This document shows, one piece after another, positions 4,680 through 41,209 of a stretch of 64,000 bases of DNA. Source of the stretch: Jiangella anatolica (GTDB lineage: Bacteria; Actinomycetota; Actinomycetes; Jiangellales; Jiangellaceae). Where the stretch lies: positions 1 to 64,000 of the forward strand of contig NZ_POTW01000023.1 in the NCBI RefSeq assembly GCF_003236295.1. Direction: 5' to 3'. Numbering within the stretch: position 1 is the first letter of the stretch; each line of letters begins with the position of its first letter. The notes under the pieces were generated by a model. The model had not been told where the DNA came from. It searched no databases and saw nothing but the letters and a program-made list of their open reading frames with translations. The position numbers and the translations under genes are program-made.

Positions 4680-4691
4680 CCCGCTCCGCTT

Positions 4692-33200: not shown

Positions 33201-34610
33201 TCATCGCCTCTCATGGACGTGCTCGAGGGCTTGGGCTGCAGCCCAGGTCACGGCGGCGGCCAGGTCGTCCGGGGTCTGTCCGGGCGGCTCGGGAACGATC
33301 TGATCGACGACGCCGGAGACGAAGAGGTGCGTGGCGTCGATCTTCTGTCGCCGGGCCAGGTCCGGGGCGTGCGCGGTATCGCGATGGACGATCGCGCTGG
33401 CCCCCTCGGGAGCGAGCGGTGCGAGCCACGCGTGCTCCGTCGCGATGACCTGCTGGGCTCCGAGGAGCGCCAGAGCAGCTCCGCCGGCGCCCTGGCCGAG
33501 CAGGAGAGCGACGGACGGCGCGGTCAGGGTGAGGAGATCGGCTGTGCACTGGGCGATCGTGAAGGCGAGTCCGCCGTTCTCCGCCTCGGCGGAGAGGTCG
33601 GCGCCGGGAGTGTCGATCACGGTGAGAAGTGGCAGCCTCCATTCCTCGGCAAGCGTCATCGCGCGTTGCGCTGCGCGTAGGTCGTGCGGACGTATGGGCT
33701 GGTCCGATCGTCGGTCCTGGGCGACGAGGACGCACGGGATGCCGCGGACGCCGGCGAGGCTGACGTGGATCGCCGGCCGGCCGTGGCCGGTCCCCGCCAG
33801 CGGGACGAGCGCCGCGACGCCGTTGCGGTAGAGCTCGCTGAGCGTCACCCGATCGGATCGGCGCGTCAGCTCGACCGATGCCCAGGCGTCGACGGGTTCC
33901 GGTGCCGCAACCGGCTGCCGGGCCGCAGGCCCGCTCATGCGAGTGGGAACGCCGCGGAGTGCGCCGAGGATCGTGGTGAGGAGCCGGCGCAGCTCGCTGA
34001 CCGGAGTCAGGGCATCGACGAGACCGCGGGCGGCGAGATTCGCCGCCGTCTGCACGCCTTCCGGCAGCGCCGATCCGGTCAGCATCTCGGTGACGCGAGG
34101 GCCCAGGAAGCCGAGGAGCGCACCCGGCTCCGCGAGCGTGATCTGTCCGAGAGCACCCCAGGACGCCATCACCCCTCCGGTCGTGGGATGGCGCAGATGG
34201 GCGATGTACGGGAATCCCGCCGCGCGGTGGCGCGCGACGGCGGCGCTGACGTCGAGCATCCGAACGAAGGCGGGTGTGCCTTCCTGCATCCGGGTTCCTC
34301 CTGAGGCAGTGGAGGCCAGGACCGGGAGACCCGACCGCGTTGCCCGTGCCAGCGCAGCGACGATCCGGTCGGCGGCCGCGACGCCGATGGAGCCGGCCAG
34401 GAAGTCGAACTCGCTGACGATGAGCACGACCGGGTATCCGGCGACCTGCCCCAGTCCGGTCACCACCGCCTCGTCGGCCCCGCTTCGCGCCCGAGCACGC
34501 GCGAGCGTCGCGGCGTACTCGACGTCGGCCTCTGGTGCATCGGACGGCACGTCCCACGACTCGAAGGTTCCATCGTCGACGACCGCTTCGATCACGTCGT
34601 GCGCCGGCAT
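33201..34610 (-). CDS. Acyl-CoA carboxylase carboxyltransferase, AccD-like and AccA-like halves fused
   Basis: A 469-residue cytoplasmic crotonase-fold protein. The first half (about 15-220) resembles AccD, with STASGGTRMQEG and HPTTGGVMASWGALG, but lacks the zinc finger. The second half (about 245-465) resembles AccA, with VIDTPGADLSAEAENGG, GQGAGGAALALLGAQ and LAPLAPEGASAIVHRD. It should transfer a carboxyl group between biotin and an acyl-CoA or malonyl-type donor. No biotin carboxylase or carrier gene is in the window. A malonate-decarboxylase-like MdcD/E fusion is an alternative. The gene is divergent from a FadR-type regulator, with a palindrome in the shared promoter. Confidence 0.85.
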   Translation of the reverse strand: MPAHDVIEAVVDDGTFESWDVPSDAPEADVEYAATLARARARSGADEAVVTGLGQVAGYPVVLIVSEFDFLAGSIGVAAADRIVAALARATRSGLPVLASTASGGTRMQEGTPAFVRMLDVSAAVARHRAAGFPYIAHLRHPTTGGVMASWGALGQITLAEPGALLGFLGPRVTEMLTGSALPEGVQTAANLAARGLVDALTPVSELRRLLTTILGALRGVPTRMSGPAARQPVAAPEPVDAWASVELTRRSDRVTLSELYRNGVAALVPLAGTGHGRPAIHVSLAGVRGIPCVLVAQDRRSDQPIRPHDLRAAQRAMTLAEEWRLPLLTVIDTPGADLSAEAENGGLAFTIAQCTADLLTLTAPSVALLLGQGAGGAALALLGAQQVIATEHAWLAPLAPEGASAIVHRDTAHAPDLARRQKIDATHLFVSGVVDQIVPEPPGQTPDDLAAAVTWAAAQALEHVHERR

Positions 34611-34634
34611 GGGAGCGCCTCTCTGGCGATGAAC

Positions 34635-34659
34635 TATTGGCTCAGTGGCCCAGCCAATA
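34635..34659. promoter_or_regulatory. Palindromic operator between the carboxyltransferase and gntR genes
   Basis: TATTGGCT (34635-34642) and AGCCAATA (34652-34659) are perfect arms with 9 bases between. The site starts 25 bases from the minus-strand start codon and ends 35 bases before the regulator start. It is the likely binding site of the adjacent FadR-type regulator. Confidence 0.75.
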
Positions 34660-34681
34660 TGCCATCGGATGCGCCTGTCAA

Positions 34682-34693: not shown

Positions 34694-35386
34694 GTGCGCA
34701 ACCAGATCCGCCCGGTCGTCCGCCCGCGGCTGTACGAGACCGTCGCCCGGCAGATCGCGGCCTGGGTCGACGAGAACCAGCTCGGGGTCGGAGATCGTCT
34801 TCCGCCCGAGCGGGAGCTCGCGAGCAGCCTGGGGGTCAGCCGCACCACGGTCAGCCAGGCCCTCGTGGCCATGGAAGTGGTGGGGGCCGTCGCGGTCCGG
34901 CACGGCGACGGGGTGGTGATCACGTCCGGCGCGAGCATGGGCCGGATCGCCGACGCCATCCGCGAGCATGCCCGCCGGCTGCCCGACGTCCTCGACGCTC
35001 GCGACGCCATCGAGACGAAGCTCGCCGCGCTGGCCGCGGCCAGGCGCACCGACGCCGACCTCGCGGCCATGGACGCCGCGCTCGAGCAGATGGCTGCCGA
35101 CGTCGAGCGAGGTGGGCGTGGCGTGGAGGGCGATGAGCGGTTCCACGCCGCCGTGACGTCGGCCGCACGCTCCGGGCTGCTCAGCCGCGTGATGCTCGAG
35201 CTGACGGCCGAGATCACCGAGACGCGCATCGAGTCGCTCGGGCAGCCGGGGAGGCCGAACGAGTCTCTCGACCAGCACCGCCGTATCGCCGACGCGATCC
35301 GGCGCGGTGACGCGGACGCCGCTGCCGCCGCGATGCACGCGCATGTGACGACAGTCAGCGATCTGGCCATTCTGCGCGAGTCCTGA
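34694..35386 (+). CDS. GntR family regulator, FadR (FCD) subfamily
   Basis: A 230-residue repressor. The winged helix spans about 10-75 (RLYETVARQIAAWVDEN, LPPERELASSLGVSRTTVSQ). The helical FCD domain (about 90-220) has the expected metal/ligand residues: DARDAIETKLAALAA, DERFHAAVTSAARSG and the late QHRRIADAIRRGDADAAAAAM. FCD domains bind small carboxylates or acyl compounds, which suits the divergent carboxyltransferase. The GTG start is 7 bases after the -10 box. Confidence 0.9.
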   Translation: MRNQIRPVVRPRLYETVARQIAAWVDENQLGVGDRLPPERELASSLGVSRTTVSQALVAMEVVGAVAVRHGDGVVITSGASMGRIADAIREHARRLPDVLDARDAIETKLAALAAARRTDADLAAMDAALEQMAADVERGGRGVEGDERFHAAVTSAARSGLLSRVMLELTAEITETRIESLGQPGRPNESLDQHRRIADAIRRGDADAAAAAMHAHVTTVSDLAILRES

Positions 35387-35536: not shown

Positions 35537-37132
35537 ATGCGAGGTCTGTTGAAGGGCGTAGGTGCCACATCTGTCGCGTTCGCTCTCGTGCTGACCGGGT
35601 GCAGCAGCACGGAGGCCGACGGGGGCGAGGGCTCGCCCGCTGAGTTGGTGATCGGCTCCTCCGATCCGGTGCCCAACCTCGTGCCCGGCCGTCAGAGCAA
35701 CGCGTTCGGGCTGACCATGTCGGTCTTCAGCCCGCTGACCTTCCTCGACGCCGAGGGCGAGCTCAGCTATGTAGCGGCCGAGTCGGTCGAGAGTGACGAT
35801 CAGATCACCTGGACGATCACGCTGCGCGACGGCTGGACCTTCCACGACGGCACCCCGGTGACGGCTCAGGACTACGTGGACAGCTGGAACACGGTGGCGT
35901 ACGGGCCGAACGCGTTCGAGAACTCCGGCCAGCTGGCGGTGATCGCCGGATACGCGGATCTGAACCCGGCAGAGGGCGAGCCGGCTACGGACGAGCTCTC
36001 CGGATTGGCCGTCATCGACGACCTGACCTTCAGCGTGACGCTCAACCGGGCGGACAGCCAGTTCCCCGTCCAGCTCTCGCAGGCCCAGACCGCCTTCTAT
36101 CCGATGCCGCAGAGCGCCTTCCAGGATCTGGACGCGTACGGGAAGCAGCCGATCGGAAACGGTCCGTTCGCGGTGACAACCCGCTGGACGGAGGGCGAGC
36201 CCATCGTCGCCGAGCGGTACCAGGACTATGCCGGCGACGAGCCGACGGTCGACAAGATCACCTGGGTGCCCTATTCGGATCGGCTCACCGCCTACACCGA
36301 TGCCCTCGCCGGCAACGTCGACATCGTGCGGCTTCCGGCCAACCGGATGACGCAGGTGGCCGACGACTTCGAGGACGATCACATCTACAGCTTCTCGGGA
36401 CCGGCGATCAGCTACCTGAGCTTCCCGTACTGGGACGCCAGGTTCGACGACGTCCGGGTCCGGCAGGCGATCTCGATGGCCATCGACCGGGATGCGATCA
36501 ACGAGGCGCTCTTCGGCGATCTGAACGCACCCGCCACGGCGTGGACGCCGTCGATCATGCCCGGTAACCCCGACGGCATCTGCGGGGAGTACTGCGAATA
36601 CGACCCCGAAGCCGCTGCCGCGCTCCTGGCGCAGGCGGGGGGCTTCGAGGGAGAGCTCACGATCCACTTCCCCGGCGGCGCGGGCCAGGACGACCTGTTC
36701 AACGCCATTGCGAACTACCTGCGCCAGAACCTCGGCGTCGACGCCATCGCCCGGCCCTCCGTCGGATGGGCCGAGTTCAGCGAGGATCGCAACAACAAGG
36801 TGCTCGACGGGCCCTTCTTCGCCCGTTGGGGTGCGCTCTACCCGAGCCAGCAGTCGACCCTGAGGGCGGTGTTCACGAGCGCCGCGGGCTGCACCAACTG
36901 CGGCGGAGTGATCATCCCCGAGGTGGAGCAGGCGCTGAACGACGCCGACGCGAGCGACAGCGAGGACGGCGAGGCGTACGCGGCCGCCCAGCAGCACCTC
37001 GCGGAGGGGTTCCCGGTCGTGCCGCTGTTCGAGGAGTCGTACAACTTCGTCACCTCCGACAAGGTCGCGGAGCTCACGGCCTCGGCCGTGGGAGAGCCGC
37101 TCCTCACCGACGTGATCCTCGCCGGCGACTGA
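35537..37132 (+). CDS. Peptide ABC transporter substrate-binding lipoprotein (SBP_bac_5)
   Basis: A 531-residue family 5 binding protein of the OppA/DppA type. Residues 1-22 form a lipoprotein signal with lipobox LTGC (Cys 22). The family signature is seen in LRDGWTFHDGTPVTAQDYVDSW. DVRVRQAISMAIDRDAINEA and DPEAAAALLAQAG follow as in oligopeptide binders. It captures the substrate outside the membrane for the downstream permeases. AAGGAGGCG precedes the ATG. It is the first gene of a seven-gene operon ending at 44114. Confidence 0.94.
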   Translation: MRGLLKGVGATSVAFALVLTGCSSTEADGGEGSPAELVIGSSDPVPNLVPGRQSNAFGLTMSVFSPLTFLDAEGELSYVAAESVESDDQITWTITLRDGWTFHDGTPVTAQDYVDSWNTVAYGPNAFENSGQLAVIAGYADLNPAEGEPATDELSGLAVIDDLTFSVTLNRADSQFPVQLSQAQTAFYPMPQSAFQDLDAYGKQPIGNGPFAVTTRWTEGEPIVAERYQDYAGDEPTVDKITWVPYSDRLTAYTDALAGNVDIVRLPANRMTQVADDFEDDHIYSFSGPAISYLSFPYWDARFDDVRVRQAISMAIDRDAINEALFGDLNAPATAWTPSIMPGNPDGICGEYCEYDPEAAAALLAQAGGFEGELTIHFPGGAGQDDLFNAIANYLRQNLGVDAIARPSVGWAEFSEDRNNKVLDGPFFARWGALYPSQQSTLRAVFTSAAGCTNCGGVIIPEVEQALNDADASDSEDGEAYAAAQQHLAEGFPVVPLFEESYNFVTSDKVAELTASAVGEPLLTDVILAGD

Positions 37133-37148
37133 GCCGCACCGGAGCACC

Positions 37149-38075
37149 ATGACGCGCTACGTATCCCGCCGGCTGCTGGAACTGGTCATCGTCTTCTTCG
37201 GTGTCACGTTCGTCATCTACTGCGCGGTGTTCCTTCTTCCCGGCGACCCGATCGCGGCCCTCGGCGGGGACCGGCCGCTGCCGGAATCCGTGCAAAAGCA
37301 GCTGAGGTCGCGATACGGGCTGGACCTCCCGATCTGGCAGCAGTACCTCGACTACCTGGGCGGCCTTGCGCGGGGGGACTTCGGCACGACCTTCACCGGT
37401 CAGTCCGTCGGCGAGCAGATGGCCAGCCGATGGCCCACCACGATCAAGCTCGCGCTGACGGCGTGGTCGTTGACCGTGCTCATCAGCGTCGCGCTGGGAC
37501 TGGCGGCGGGACTGCGGCACGGTTCAGCGCTGGACAGGAGCGTGCTTCTCGGCACGATCGTCGCGGAGTCCGTGCCCATCTTCGTCCTGGGCATCATGGC
37601 GCAGTACATCGTCGGCATCACGCTCGGCTGGGCGCCCATCGCCGGTGTGGACGACGGATGGCCGCGGGCCTATCTCCTCCCCGCGCTGATCATCGCGGTG
37701 TACGGGCTCGCAGGCGTCTCGAGGCTCATGCGAGGCAGCCTCGTCGACACGATGCGGTCGGACTTCGTGCGCACGCTGAGAGCCAAGGGCATGTCGCAAG
37801 GCGACGTCGTCGGCCTCCACGTCATGCGCAACGCCGCGGCGCCCGTCGTCAACCTGCTGGCCATCCAGCTGGGCTCGCTGCTGGGAGGAACGGTGGTCAT
37901 CGAGGCCATCTTCAACATCAACGGAGTGGGACAGCTGCTGTACAAGGCCATTCAGGACCAGGAGGGAACGCTGGTCGTCGGCGTCGCCACGACGCTGGTG
38001 TTCATCTTCCTCGTCACCAACCTGCTCGTCGACATCCTCTCGTCCGTCCTCGACCCCAGGATCCGACATGACTGA
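37149..38075 (+). CDS. Peptide ABC transporter permease, DppB type
   Basis: A 308-residue membrane protein with six helices. The N-terminal RYVSRRLLELVIVFFGVTF and PIWQQYLDYLGGLARGDFG are typical of DppB/OppB. The cytoplasmic EAA loop is near LRAKGMSQGDVVGLHVMRN. It pairs with the next permease to form the channel. It starts 16 bases after the binding-protein gene and overlaps the next permease by 8 bases. Confidence 0.94.
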   Translation: MTRYVSRRLLELVIVFFGVTFVIYCAVFLLPGDPIAALGGDRPLPESVQKQLRSRYGLDLPIWQQYLDYLGGLARGDFGTTFTGQSVGEQMASRWPTTIKLALTAWSLTVLISVALGLAAGLRHGSALDRSVLLGTIVAESVPIFVLGIMAQYIVGITLGWAPIAGVDDGWPRAYLLPALIIAVYGLAGVSRLMRGSLVDTMRSDFVRTLRAKGMSQGDVVGLHVMRNAAAPVVNLLAIQLGSLLGGTVVIEAIFNINGVGQLLYKAIQDQEGTLVVGVATTLVFIFLVTNLLVDILSSVLDPRIRHD

Positions 38076-38967
38076 GCCGGCCACGGTGGCGCTCGACGGC
38101 ACCCTCGACCGGGCCACCACCACACAGGGCCTCTGGGCCGCGCTGCGCAGCCGGGTCCAGTTCTGGGTGAGCCTCGCTCTGCTGACCGTACTGGCGATCA
38201 TCGCGGCGGTTCCGGGTGTGCTCGCGGGCCTCTTCGGAGAGGGCGATCCTCGAGCCTGTGACCTGACGGCGTCGAATCGTCCGCCGACCTCCGGCCACCT
38301 GTTCGGTACCGACGTGCAGGGCTGCGACGTCCTGGCCAACGTCCTGTTCGGTGCGCGGACGTCGCTGTTCATCGGCCTCGCGACGACGGCGATCTGCTTG
38401 GTCGTCGCCGTGACGCTCGGAACGCTGGCGGGATATGCCGGAGGGTGGCTCGACGCGCTGATCGCGCGCACCGCCGACGTGGTGCTCGGCTTCCCGTTCC
38501 TGCTCGGTGCGATCATCGTGCTCAACACCGCGCCGAATCGATCTCCGCTGCTGCTGGCCGCGGTGCTGGCCTTCTTCTCGTGGCCCACCTTCGCCAGGCT
38601 CATCCGTAGCTCGGTCAGGGAGGTGCGCGAGCGCGAGTTCGTGCAGGCCTCGCATGCGCTGGGCCTCTCACAGGCACGGGTCGTCCTCACGCACGTGCTA
38701 CCCAACTCCCTTGCCCCGACCCTGGCCATCGCCGCGACCATGGTGGGCGGTGTCATCGGAGCGGAAGCCACGCTGACCTTCCTCGGGGTCGGCCTCGTCC
38801 CGCCGTCCATCTCCTGGGGAGTCCAGCTCTCGACCGCGCAGTCCTACTTCCAGGGCGCTCCCCACACGGTCGTCTTCCCCAGCATCTTCCTCACCGTCAC
38901 CGTGATCAGTCTCATCATGCTCGGAGACGCGCTTCGTGATGCTCTCGATCCGCGGGGGCGCACATGA
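38068..38967 (+). CDS. Peptide ABC transporter permease, DppC type
   Basis: A 299-residue membrane protein. The DppC N-terminal external loop holds the usual LFGTDVQGCDVLANVLFGAR segment. The EAA motif lies in FVQASHALGLSQARVVLTHVLPNS. ATLTFLGVGLVPPSISWG is a strong family block. Gene overlaps: 8 bases with DppB, 4 bases (ATGA) with the MarR-type gene. Confidence 0.94.
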   Translation: MTEPATVALDGTLDRATTTQGLWAALRSRVQFWVSLALLTVLAIIAAVPGVLAGLFGEGDPRACDLTASNRPPTSGHLFGTDVQGCDVLANVLFGARTSLFIGLATTAICLVVAVTLGTLAGYAGGWLDALIARTADVVLGFPFLLGAIIVLNTAPNRSPLLLAAVLAFFSWPTFARLIRSSVREVREREFVQASHALGLSQARVVLTHVLPNSLAPTLAIAATMVGGVIGAEATLTFLGVGLVPPSISWGVQLSTAQSYFQGAPHTVVFPSIFLTVTVISLIMLGDALRDALDPRGRT

Positions 38968-39584
38968 GCGCCGACGTCGCGTGTGACGATCTAGCCGTTG
39001 GGGACATCGAACATGAGGAGCGCATTTCCATGGAGATGAGCGAACTGAGTGACGAGATCCGGACCTTCATCGATCGGTTCACCGATGCCTGGGAGCTGAT
39101 GCGCGGAAAGCGGATGACCGGACGAGTCCTCGCACTGCTGATCATCACGGACGAGCCGTACCTCTCCTCGGCGGACCTCGGGAGGCTGCTGAACACGAGT
39201 CCCGGCACCATCTCGACCGCGACGCGGGCGCTCCTCGGGTCCGGGTACATCACGAAGGTCTCGATCCCGAACAGCAGGATCACCTGTTTCAGAGCGGAGG
39301 ACGACGTCTGGGGAGCCTTCCTCAGCCGCGAGAAGCTGGGCCTTCAGCGGATGGAGGAGGTCCTTCGAACCGCCAGGTCGACGCCGGCCGGCTCGGCGCC
39401 GGCGACCGCCCGGCGCCTCCGGAACGGCAGTCGCTACATGGCATGGGTCGACCAGTATCACCGCAACGTGCTGGAGCAATGGCACACGTATCGGGACCAG
39501 GACGAGGACACGCCCCCGCCGCAGGAGCTTCCCGCGGAGATGCTGGCCGCGATCAAGCGCGGGGATCACGAGGAGAGTCCATGA
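38964..39584 (+). CDS. MarR/GbsR-type transcriptional regulator inside the peptide operon
   Basis: A 206-residue regulator. A winged helix at about 45-105 shows LSSADLGRLLNTSPGTISTA and LLGSGYITKVSIPNSRITCF. The N-terminal 25 residues are extra and acidic; an ATG at 39030 is an alternative start. The C-terminal half is helical and may bind the imported compound. It is translationally coupled on both sides (ATGA overlaps), so the transporter and its regulator are made together. Its likely site is the TTTAAA palindrome at 35472-35487 (inference). Confidence 0.85.
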   Translation: MSADVACDDLAVGDIEHEERISMEMSELSDEIRTFIDRFTDAWELMRGKRMTGRVLALLIITDEPYLSSADLGRLLNTSPGTISTATRALLGSGYITKVSIPNSRITCFRAEDDVWGAFLSREKLGLQRMEEVLRTARSTPAGSAPATARRLRNGSRYMAWVDQYHRNVLEQWHTYRDQDEDTPPPQELPAEMLAAIKRGDHEESP

Positions 39585-41209
39585 GCGCGCCCCTGCTGGC
39601 ACTCGACGATCTGACGGTGGACTTCCGCGGGCGACGAGGCGACGGGGTCCGGGCGGTGGACGGCGTGTCGTTCGAGGTCTTCGAGGGCGAGATCGTCGCC
39701 GTCGTCGGTGAGTCCGGATCGGGGAAGACCGTCACGGCGATGAGCGTCCTGGGTCTGCTCCCCGACAACGCCGAGGTGGCCGGCCGCATCCGGCTGGGCG
39801 GCGAGGACCTGCTGACCGCCGACGAGAAGACCCTGCAGAACGTGCGCGGCCGGCGCATCGCGATGATCTTCCAGGACCCGTTCGGGGCGCTCGACCCGGT
39901 CTTCACGATCGGGTTCCAGGTCCGGGAGGTCCTGCGCAAGCACTTCCCCGAGCTGAGCGCGCGGGATCGCAGGCGCCGGGCGATCGACCTGCTCGCGGCC
40001 GTCGAACTGCGTGAACCGGAGAAGCGCTCCCGCTCCTATCCGCATCAGCTGTCCGGCGGGCAGGCCCAGCGGGTGGTGATCGCCATGGCGCTGGCCTGCG
40101 GCCCGGAGATCCTGATCGCCGACGAACCGACGACGGCCCTCGACGTCACGGTGCAGCGGGAGATCCTCGATCTCCTGATGCGTGTGCGTGAGAGGGAGGG
40201 GACGGCCGTCCTCCTCATCACGCACGACATGGGCGTCGTCGCCGATGTCGCGGACCGGGTCGTCGTGATGAGGGACGGACGGGTCGAGGAGACACAGACC
40301 GTCGAGCGACTCTTCGCGCACCCCTCGGCCGCGTACACACAGCGGCTGCTGCGGTCCGTGCCACGCCTCGACGCGGCTGACCGCGCCTCGCTCGCCGACG
40401 ACCGGCCGGCTCTCGTCCTCGACGATCTCACGGTCGAGTACCGGCAGCGGTTCCAGTCCGTGACCGCGGTCGCCGGCGCGAGCCTGACCGTCGCGCGGGG
40501 TGAGGTCGTCGCCCTCGTGGGCGAGTCCGGCTCGGGGAAGACGACCATCGGCAAGGCCATCACCGGCCTCGCCCCGGTGACGAGCGGGACCATCGTCGTC
40601 GACGGCATGGACGCGGTGAATGCCCGCAGGCGGCGGGCGGCGGACCTGCGGAAGAAGATCGGCGTCGTGTTCCAGAACCCGATGGGCGCGCTCGATCCGC
40701 GCTGGACGATGGCGGAGTCCATCGGCGAGCCGCTGCGCGTCCACCGCGGCGTGCGCGGCAAGGCGCTGAAGGCGCGAACGGACGAACTGCTGGATGCTGT
40801 GGGGCTCGCCCGCTCCTGGTCCACCCGCTATGCGCACGAGCTCTCGGGCGGACAGCGCCAGCGCGTCGCCATCGCTCGCGCCCTGGCCCTGGACCCCGTG
40901 CTGCTGATCGCGGACGAACCGACCTCCGCGTTGGACGTGTCCGTGCAGTCGACCGTTCTCGATCTCTTCCGCAGCCTGCAGAGAGAGCTGCACTTCGCCT
41001 GCCTGTTCATCAGCCACGACCTCGCCGTGGTCGACAGCCTGGCCGACCGGATCGTGGTGATGAGCAACTCCCGCGTGGTCGAGGAGGGCGCACGCAGGCA
41101 GATCCTGCTGGATCCGCGGGAGGACTACACCAGACGGCTCCTGGAGGCCGCACCGGTTCCGGACCCGGATGTGCAGCGGAGGCGAAGGAGAGAACGAGAG
41201 AAGGTATGA
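39581..41209 (+). CDS. Fused peptide ABC ATPase (DppD-DppF in one chain)
   Basis: A 542-residue protein with two complete nucleotide-binding domains. Domain 1 (about 3-255) has GESGSGKT (43-50), LSGGQAQRVVIAMAL and ILIADEPTTALD. Domain 2 (about 278-530) has GESGSGKT, LSGGQRQRVAIARAL and LLIADEPTSALD. Each also has a switch His (LLITHDMGVVADV, LFISHDLAVVDSL). It powers the two permeases above. ATGA overlaps the MarR stop and the next gene overlaps its end. Confidence 0.95.
   Translation: MSAPLLALDDLTVDFRGRRGDGVRAVDGVSFEVFEGEIVAVVGESGSGKTVTAMSVLGLLPDNAEVAGRIRLGGEDLLTADEKTLQNVRGRRIAMIFQDPFGALDPVFTIGFQVREVLRKHFPELSARDRRRRAIDLLAAVELREPEKRSRSYPHQLSGGQAQRVVIAMALACGPEILIADEPTTALDVTVQREILDLLMRVREREGTAVLLITHDMGVVADVADRVVVMRDGRVEETQTVERLFAHPSAAYTQRLLRSVPRLDAADRASLADDRPALVLDDLTVEYRQRFQSVTAVAGASLTVARGEVVALVGESGSGKTTIGKAITGLAPVTSGTIVVDGMDAVNARRRRAADLRKKIGVVFQNPMGALDPRWTMAESIGEPLRVHRGVRGKALKARTDELLDAVGLARSWSTRYAHELSGGQRQRVAIARALALDPVLLIADEPTSALDVSVQSTVLDLFRSLQRELHFACLFISHDLAVVDSLADRIVVMSNSRVVEEGARRQILLDPREDYTRRLLEAAPVPDPDVQRRRRREREKV

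Follow-up and report, generated by a model that had tools for sequence, protein, structure and literature searches.

The window analysed here is a stretch of 64,000 nucleotides from Jiangella anatolica, located on contig C154 of a 7.0-Mb genome. It contains a gene in which the two carboxyltransferase halves of acetyl-CoA carboxylase, AccD and AccA, are fused, transcribed divergently from a gene for a GntR-type regulator. The question raised by this locus is which reaction such a protein carries out with no zinc finger of its own and no biotin genes nearby. A sequence-only reading had offered two answers, a specialised acyl-CoA carboxylase or a malonate-decarboxylase-type enzyme.

Carboxyltransferase gene and protein

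In the window ORF list, the gene occupies positions 33201-34610 on the reverse strand. It encodes 469 amino acids from an ATG start, and no earlier in-frame start was present when the first ATG, GTG or TTG after a stop was taken as the rule. Both carboxyltransferase halves were matched in Pfam (Carboxyl_trans, 8.5e-41; ACCA, 5.3e-38). The protein has only two cysteines, C293 and C355, and lacks the CxxC...CxxC zinc finger. A domain search of the genome returned 12 biotin/lipoyl and 11 CPSase_L_D2 matches, none of which lies on C154. The sequence-only reading had described the fusion of both halves, the missing AccD zinc finger and the lack of biotin carboxylase or carrier genes in the vicinity correctly. 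The protein is a candidate malonyl-CoA decarboxylase.

A copy more than 75% identical to the window gene occurs in two of 12 genomes of the genus. The window and one genus relative (G005, 79% identity) share a layout that consists of the GntR gene and the carboxyltransferase gene only. Copies from other genera of the same family are 49-53% identical, and that of Thermocatellispora 68%. The window gene resembles that of Thermocatellispora more than those of the other family genera and was probably gained sideways. On the far side of the regulator, at 35537-41209, the window carries a dipeptide-type ABC operon that includes a MarR-like gene and is followed by an M14 carboxypeptidase gene; the regulator of G005 (L146) has a similar set of genes beside it.

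Family placement

The window protein scored below the cut-off of the NCBIfam accD model (170.6 bits against 317.45) and of PRK05724 for accA (121.6 bits against 357), and far below that of NCBIfam malonate_beta (46.5 bits against 278.15). Relatives were collected in a genome scan that gave 428 confirmed sequences; the best 80 loci were kept, with a bias toward close kin. In a class sample, a match was found in 74 of 246 genomes (query L032, E <= 1e-90).

A tree was built from 84 of 114 rows, leaving out 30 rows without detected partner genes. A quick method was used, with SH-aLRT support only and a long-branch warning, and the outgroup consisted of MdcDE and PCC-type rows. One group (SH-aLRT 99, stem 1.81) comprised the window protein and 63 others. 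Zinc-finger AccDA proteins and the AccD and AccA pairs of Listeria and Anoxybacillus formed the neighbouring group (support 90, drawn open). MdcDE was placed with the PCC-type rows, apart from the window clade, a placement to which the long-branch warning applies. Membership of the Mdc family was rejected on this separation and on the malonate_beta score.

All 13 zinc-finger AccDA rows have the zinc finger, and none of the 111 other rows has it, the window protein and duplicates included. These zinc-finger proteins (L017-L027, L034, L205) resemble the window protein in their fused AccD and AccA halves and their neighbouring tree position. They differ not only in the zinc finger but also in the biotin carboxylase and carrier genes (AccC, AccB) that adjoin all 13 loci, whereas such genes were found beside the window clade in none of 80 loci (best 80 of 428) and none of 20 further examined as a second set. 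The ordinary AccD and AccA pairs of Listeria and Anoxybacillus likewise showed no biotin genes in the flanking stretches examined, so that missing adjacent biotin genes alone do not prove biotin independence.

The sequence-only reading had suggested searching the genome for unpaired biotin proteins. The genome does encode an unpaired 88-residue biotin-carrier-like protein with an ESMKMEI motif (L144, G000:C24, 4957-5223). Its gene lies downstream of an apparent sigma factor gene and a small anti-sigma gene, and contig C24 has no biotin carboxylase match in the CPSase_L_D2 search of the genome.

Gene neighbourhoods

Flanks of up to 8 kb around the relatives were analysed. Neighbours were detected by single-sequence phmmer with one example each at more than 80 bits, so divergent partners may be missed; genes were picked with a home-made GC-frame rule, and some ORF starts are too long. 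Among the best 80 of 428 loci, 30 held a CoA-transferase, 28 a regulator homologous to that of the window, 25 a MatC-type carrier and 25 a TauE permease; the full set was present in 23 of the 80. In 50 of these loci no CoA-transferase was detected within the flanks; 16 of the 50 are truncated by a contig end. Selection is weaker in the class sample: among its 30 best loci, five of them from the window's own family, 18 had a CoA-transferase within 1.5 kb. Wherever both genes were present, CoA-transferase and carboxyltransferase shared a strand in 47 of 48 loci.

In the full layout, as in Terrabacter (L052; MatC_N, 2.8e-54; CoA_transf_3, 1e-116), the TauE and GntR genes share a strand, and the opposite strand carries MatC, CoA-transferase and carboxyltransferase. 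The Thermocatellispora locus (L035), the best of the scan, has a GntR gene divergent from CoA-transferase and carboxyltransferase genes. For the CoA-transferases of L052 and L035 the best NCBIfam model was succinate--glutarate CoA-transferase, below its cut-off, and the best PDB match was an uncharacterised CaiB protein, followed by succinate--hydroxymethylglutarate CoA-transferase.

Of the parts of such mat-type operons, the window has the regulator and the carboxyltransferase only. The sequence-only reading had called the gene lone. This holds locally, but the usual partner is encoded in the same genome: a family III CoA-transferase orthologue (63%, next 37%) at C81:1325-2497, on a 4.8-kb contig. 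There it lies beside a carbonic anhydrase gene and the end of a hydantoinase B gene, the latter matched at 20.5 bits, under the cut-off of 26.8. PF07158 (MatC_N) gave no match in the window genome, the one genome searched, and PF05292, the malonyl-CoA decarboxylase family to which MatA belongs, gave none in 22 genomes; the search controls were blank in both cases.

A second context links the family to barbiturase. Five of the nine genomes of the window's family that have the carboxyltransferase (G001, G016, G019, G020, G021) carry, in this order, two hydantoinase-type genes, CoA-transferase, carboxyltransferase, carbamate kinase and barbiturase; two further genes intervene in G016. The identification as barbiturase relies on L147, which scored 672.6 bits against the solved barbiturase 5hwe and 320.6 against cyanuric acid hydrolase. 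Outside these genomes, CoA-transferase and carboxyltransferase occur with carbamate kinase and barbiturase in Embleya (L033) and in two further loci (L244, L227), and a barbiturase gene lies close to the carboxyltransferase gene in Ornithinimicrobium (L088). Barbiturate breakdown, studied in Rhodococcus, yields malonate and urea. A barbiturase-family gene and the CoA-transferase occur in each of the 20 near-complete family genomes, the carboxyltransferase in only nine; the latter is thus an optional partner. In the window genome, the barbiturase-family gene follows a carbamate-kinase-like gene close to the beginning of another contig.

Some minor features of these loci were also recorded. A beta-carbonic anhydrase gene, whose product perhaps handles released CO2, adjoins the CoA-transferase gene in two loci (L142, 2461-3237; L147, 5158-5886), and a carbonic-anhydrase-like gene is seemingly present too in loci of G005 and G006 where the carboxyltransferase gene is missing. 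The barbiturase-family gene of one genome (G017:C1:430503-431631) appears as two matches, possibly owing to a pseudogene or a sequencing error. A sub-line of the clade (L150, L151; G015, G011) is divergent from a different FCD GntR gene, whose product scores about 25 bits against the window regulator, with ABC-transporter-like genes nearby; an FCD regulator was perhaps recruited independently there.

Regulator and operator

The regulator gene (34694-35386, forward strand, GTG start) encodes 230 amino acids. The protein belongs to the FCD family of GntR regulators, with a GntR helix-turn-helix and an FCD domain in Pfam (FCD, 2.7e-28). Residues D147, H151, H195 and H217 are near-invariant in 30 aligned regulators, and are reminiscent of the metal site found in small-carboxylate-binding FCD domains.

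The sequence-only reading had tied the carboxyltransferase gene to this regulator by an operator, a 25-bp inverted repeat, TATTGGCT-N9-AGCCAATA, at 34635-34659. The repeat is real and exact. It was the sole match with up to three mismatches in the 7.0-Mb genome; a backwards control also gave one match per strand, so only its exactness goes beyond chance. Comparison of related regulator loci placed a common element, TCAGTGGCCCAGCCAATA, at 34642-34659, with a FadR-like dyad core, TGGC-CCA-GCCA, at 34646-34656; the FadR operator, too, is arranged as TGGC-N3-GCCA. The consensus GGnTCAGTGGCCYAGCCAATAGG was found upstream of the regulator in 29 of the 29 loci first examined, with a search expression made after viewing the sequences and in a count that omits the duplicates L006 and L007 as well as L065, where the regulator start was misjudged. 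The left arm TATTGGCT precedes the element in one of the 29 loci, that of the window, and TGGCT does so in 18. The 25-bp repeat was rejected as the conserved operator: only its right half belongs to the element and, the left arm not being conserved, it is partly accidental. The tie to the FCD regulator stands, with the operator corrected to TCAGTGGCCYAGCCAATA (34642-34659).

A search of 255 loci (2.47 Mb) at up to three mismatches located TCAGTGGCCYAGCCAATA in 31 of the 32 loci with a regulator above 150 bits, 28 with at most one mismatch. Elsewhere among the 255 it occurred only in L219 and L226 (no mismatches) and L223 (three mismatches), all of which have MatC, the regulator not being detected in the short stretch. 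The exception is L253, a MatC operon with a regulator of 234 bits, whose best site has five mismatches; L091 and L250, which have weak regulator homologues, lack the element as well. In 28 of the 32 regulator loci, TCAATA follows 17-18 bases past the element. On the other strand of the window it is part of TTGACA (34676-34681, reverse strand), which may be the -35 hexamer of the carboxyltransferase gene. A promoter and terminator scan found no site. A strong palindrome near -219 in the MatC loci was set aside as coding sequence, as it lies within the first MatC codons. In the Pseudonocardia locus (L065, 6508-9404), regulator, operator (with one mismatch) and carboxyltransferase follow one another, both genes being on one strand, and no CoA-transferase was detected in its flank by phmmer.

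Predicted structure and active site

An AlphaFold model of the window protein (pLDDT 86.5, pTM 0.87) was weak at residues 108-110, inside the SGG.RMQEG motif. It fits carboxyltransferases over its whole length, matching AccD6 with Z 34.0 (rmsd 2.5, 383 residues) and the Chloroflexus AccA chain with Z 31.6 (rmsd 1.5, 230 residues). The core fold (Z 31-34) and the oxyanion-type glycine motifs SGG.RMQEG and GxGxGG are kept. MdcDE chains were absent among the 50 best matches of either structure listing, which has no bearing on kinship.

All 94 clade rows agree at T106, H128, R140, W151, G376, W395 and L399, positions at which most or all of the 15 zinc-finger and AccD-AccA rows have another residue. 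In the AccA half, the clade-specific replacements are S to G376, V to P398 and I to L399. Gln100, Tyr102 and Ser142 of MdcE have been named for malonyl contact (PMC5534430). By an alignment that includes two Mdc rows and uses an inferred numbering offset of 16, they correspond to A337, L339 and G376 of the window protein; each differs from the MdcE residue and is itself conserved. The lack of these contact residues speaks against a mere copy of the Mdc mechanism; a clade that decarboxylates malonyl-CoA would use other contacts than MdcE.

Proposed role and alternatives

A role of the clade in malonate metabolism is well supported by gene context. The explanation that we favour, with reasonable though limited confidence, is that the window protein belongs to a zinc-finger-less family derived from AccDA and acts in malonate breakdown, where a CoA-transferase loads malonate, the protein decarboxylates malonyl-CoA and the regulator represses. 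In short, the family III CoA-transferase, here supplied from C81, would move CoA from acetyl-CoA or another donor to malonate, and the window protein would work with it in trans. The AccDA-like protein would then decarboxylate malonyl-CoA to acetyl-CoA and CO2, most likely directly and without biotin, as the carboxyltransferase-fold pair MdcD-MdcE is described to do (PMC5534430). The two proteins would thereby run a malonate decarboxylase cycle at the level of CoA. Bound to the TGGC-N3-GCCA operator between both genes, the divergent FCD-GntR protein would repress the carboxyltransferase gene until malonate or a similar carboxylate releases it; regulator and operator would make a compact pair with which malonate may be sensed. 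Biotin-free decarboxylation of malonyl-CoA is probable for the window protein, whose fold is ordinary but whose role has probably been turned round, to malonate catabolism under a malonate-type regulator. Of the malonate-decarboxylase-type enzyme proposed by the sequence-only reading, the role is borne out by the neighbours MatC, CoA-transferase and barbiturase; the membership is not, the protein grouping with AccD and AccA and not with MdcDE.

Alternatively, the protein could be a biotin-dependent carboxyltransferase that carboxylates acetyl-CoA or a different acyl-CoA, or runs in reverse, and relies on a carrier encoded elsewhere, such as the 88-residue protein of C24 or an AccA-type subunit. 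The retained AccD/AccA fold and glycine motifs would suit such an enzyme, and the structural matches listed, AccD6 among them, are carboxyltransferases of biotin enzymes. An unpaired carrier-like protein is available, and the Listeria and Anoxybacillus pairs also do without adjacent biotin genes. Yet biotin genes are wanting beside the clade in every locus of both sets counted above while adjoining all zinc-finger AccDA loci, a malonate-type carrier and a CoA-transferase are odd neighbours for a carboxylase, and the replacements G376, P398 and L399 are specific to the clade. In addition, AccD3 of Mycobacterium tuberculosis was without a partner in the pull-down described in PMC4347857. We consider this alternative unlikely, while still a competitor of some weight. 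The specialised acyl-CoA carboxylase of the sequence-only reading gained no positive support beyond fold and motifs.

The chemistry could also be as in the malonate reading and the substrate another one: in place of malonyl-CoA, or in addition to it, methylmalonyl-CoA or a different beta-carboxy acyl-CoA. The barbiturase route leads from thymine to methylmalonate, and the CoA-transferase resembles succinate and glutarate enzymes, below the model cut-offs. Against this, the carrier of the relatives is of the MatC_N type, and MatC is a malonate carrier in Rhizobium and in engineered E. coli (PMC5237526, PMC12303837). Such a shift of substrate appears rather unlikely.

That the protein is the housekeeping acetyl-CoA carboxylase subunit of this organism, as its AccD/AccA similarity might suggest, is highly improbable, as all accD and accA model scores are below cut-off, close copies are confined to two of 12 genus genomes, and the five other carboxyltransferase matches of the genome include an AccD-type gene in an apparent fab cluster on C180 (names read from sequences) and an 1856-codon frame on C175 with biotin carboxylase, carrier and carboxyltransferase matches. 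Membership of the housekeeping group, which the sequence-only reading had named as the finding that would overturn it, was therefore not observed, and caution is advised against annotating clade proteins as acetyl-CoA carboxylase.

A broader version of the malonate breakdown reading is put forward tentatively, as somewhat less than an even prospect. The actinobacterial family, present in the 74 sampled class genomes and likely including mycobacterial AccD3, would be a stand-alone, biotin-free malonyl-CoA decarboxylase that forms a hitherto unrecognised CoA-level malonate decarboxylase cycle with a family III CoA-transferase and provides a last step of barbiturate (oxidative pyrimidine) breakdown. 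If true, it would fill the step between barbiturate breakdown and acetyl-CoA, and might explain the unexplained mycobacterial AccD3. Searches of open-licence PMC papers turned up neither the pairing with a CoA-transferase nor the link to barbiturase, the operator or the connection to AccD3.

Relation to known systems

The idea of a carboxyltransferase-type malonyl-CoA decarboxylase is partly in print already. Livieri et al. 2019 (PMC6491548) assert, with reference to the Rhizobium MatA paper, that malonate assimilation involves some group IV carboxyltransferases as malonyl-CoA decarboxylases. The carboxyltransferase-type 'MatA' of that source, SACE_3856, resembles the family by description only, and the C175 frame recalls the Saccharopolyspora multidomain enzyme that it mentions (PMC6491548).

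The MatRABC system of Rhizobium comprises the GntR regulator MatR, the decarboxylase MatA, the synthetase MatB and the carrier MatC. The relatives resemble it in a GntR gene beside a MatC_N carrier and in a pair for activation and decarboxylation, but have the CoA-transferase for MatB and the AccDA-like protein for MatA. With MdcD-MdcE the family shares the carboxyltransferase fold, the proposed biotin-free decarboxylation and a cycle with a transferase, there an acyl-carrier one. MdcD-MdcE differ in their separate tree branch, in the use of an acyl-carrier protein instead of CoA and in the malonyl-contact residues. The window neighbours that were read appear to be of other kinds than the Mdc acyl-carrier protein, MdcA, MdcB and MdcG.

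Clade members near an enoyl-CoA hydratase gene and an MBL-fold gene were found in seven of seven loci of one family (L237-L243) and in Tsukamurella (L029), an arrangement that matches the Rv0904c-Rv0906 order. Through this gene context and the Tsukamurella copy only, mycobacterial AccD3 (Rv0904c) probably belongs to the window clade. These AccD3-like copies differ from the mat-type loci in that no CoA-transferase was detected beside them. AccD3 of M. tuberculosis was described as an orphan without interaction with any tested partner (PMC4347857). Lipid synthesis was unchanged in an accD3 deletion mutant of M. smegmatis; MSMEG_2169 is a further homologue there, and the metabolic function of AccD3 "awaits further study", according to PMC5311964. 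One genome of the L237-L243 set (G095) has a second copy in a mat-type operon, with a GntR gene divergent from MatC, CoA-transferase and carboxyltransferase genes (L236). In this locus, two weaker operator-like sites with three mismatches were seen, at 4689 and 6295, before the MatC and before the CoA-transferase gene.
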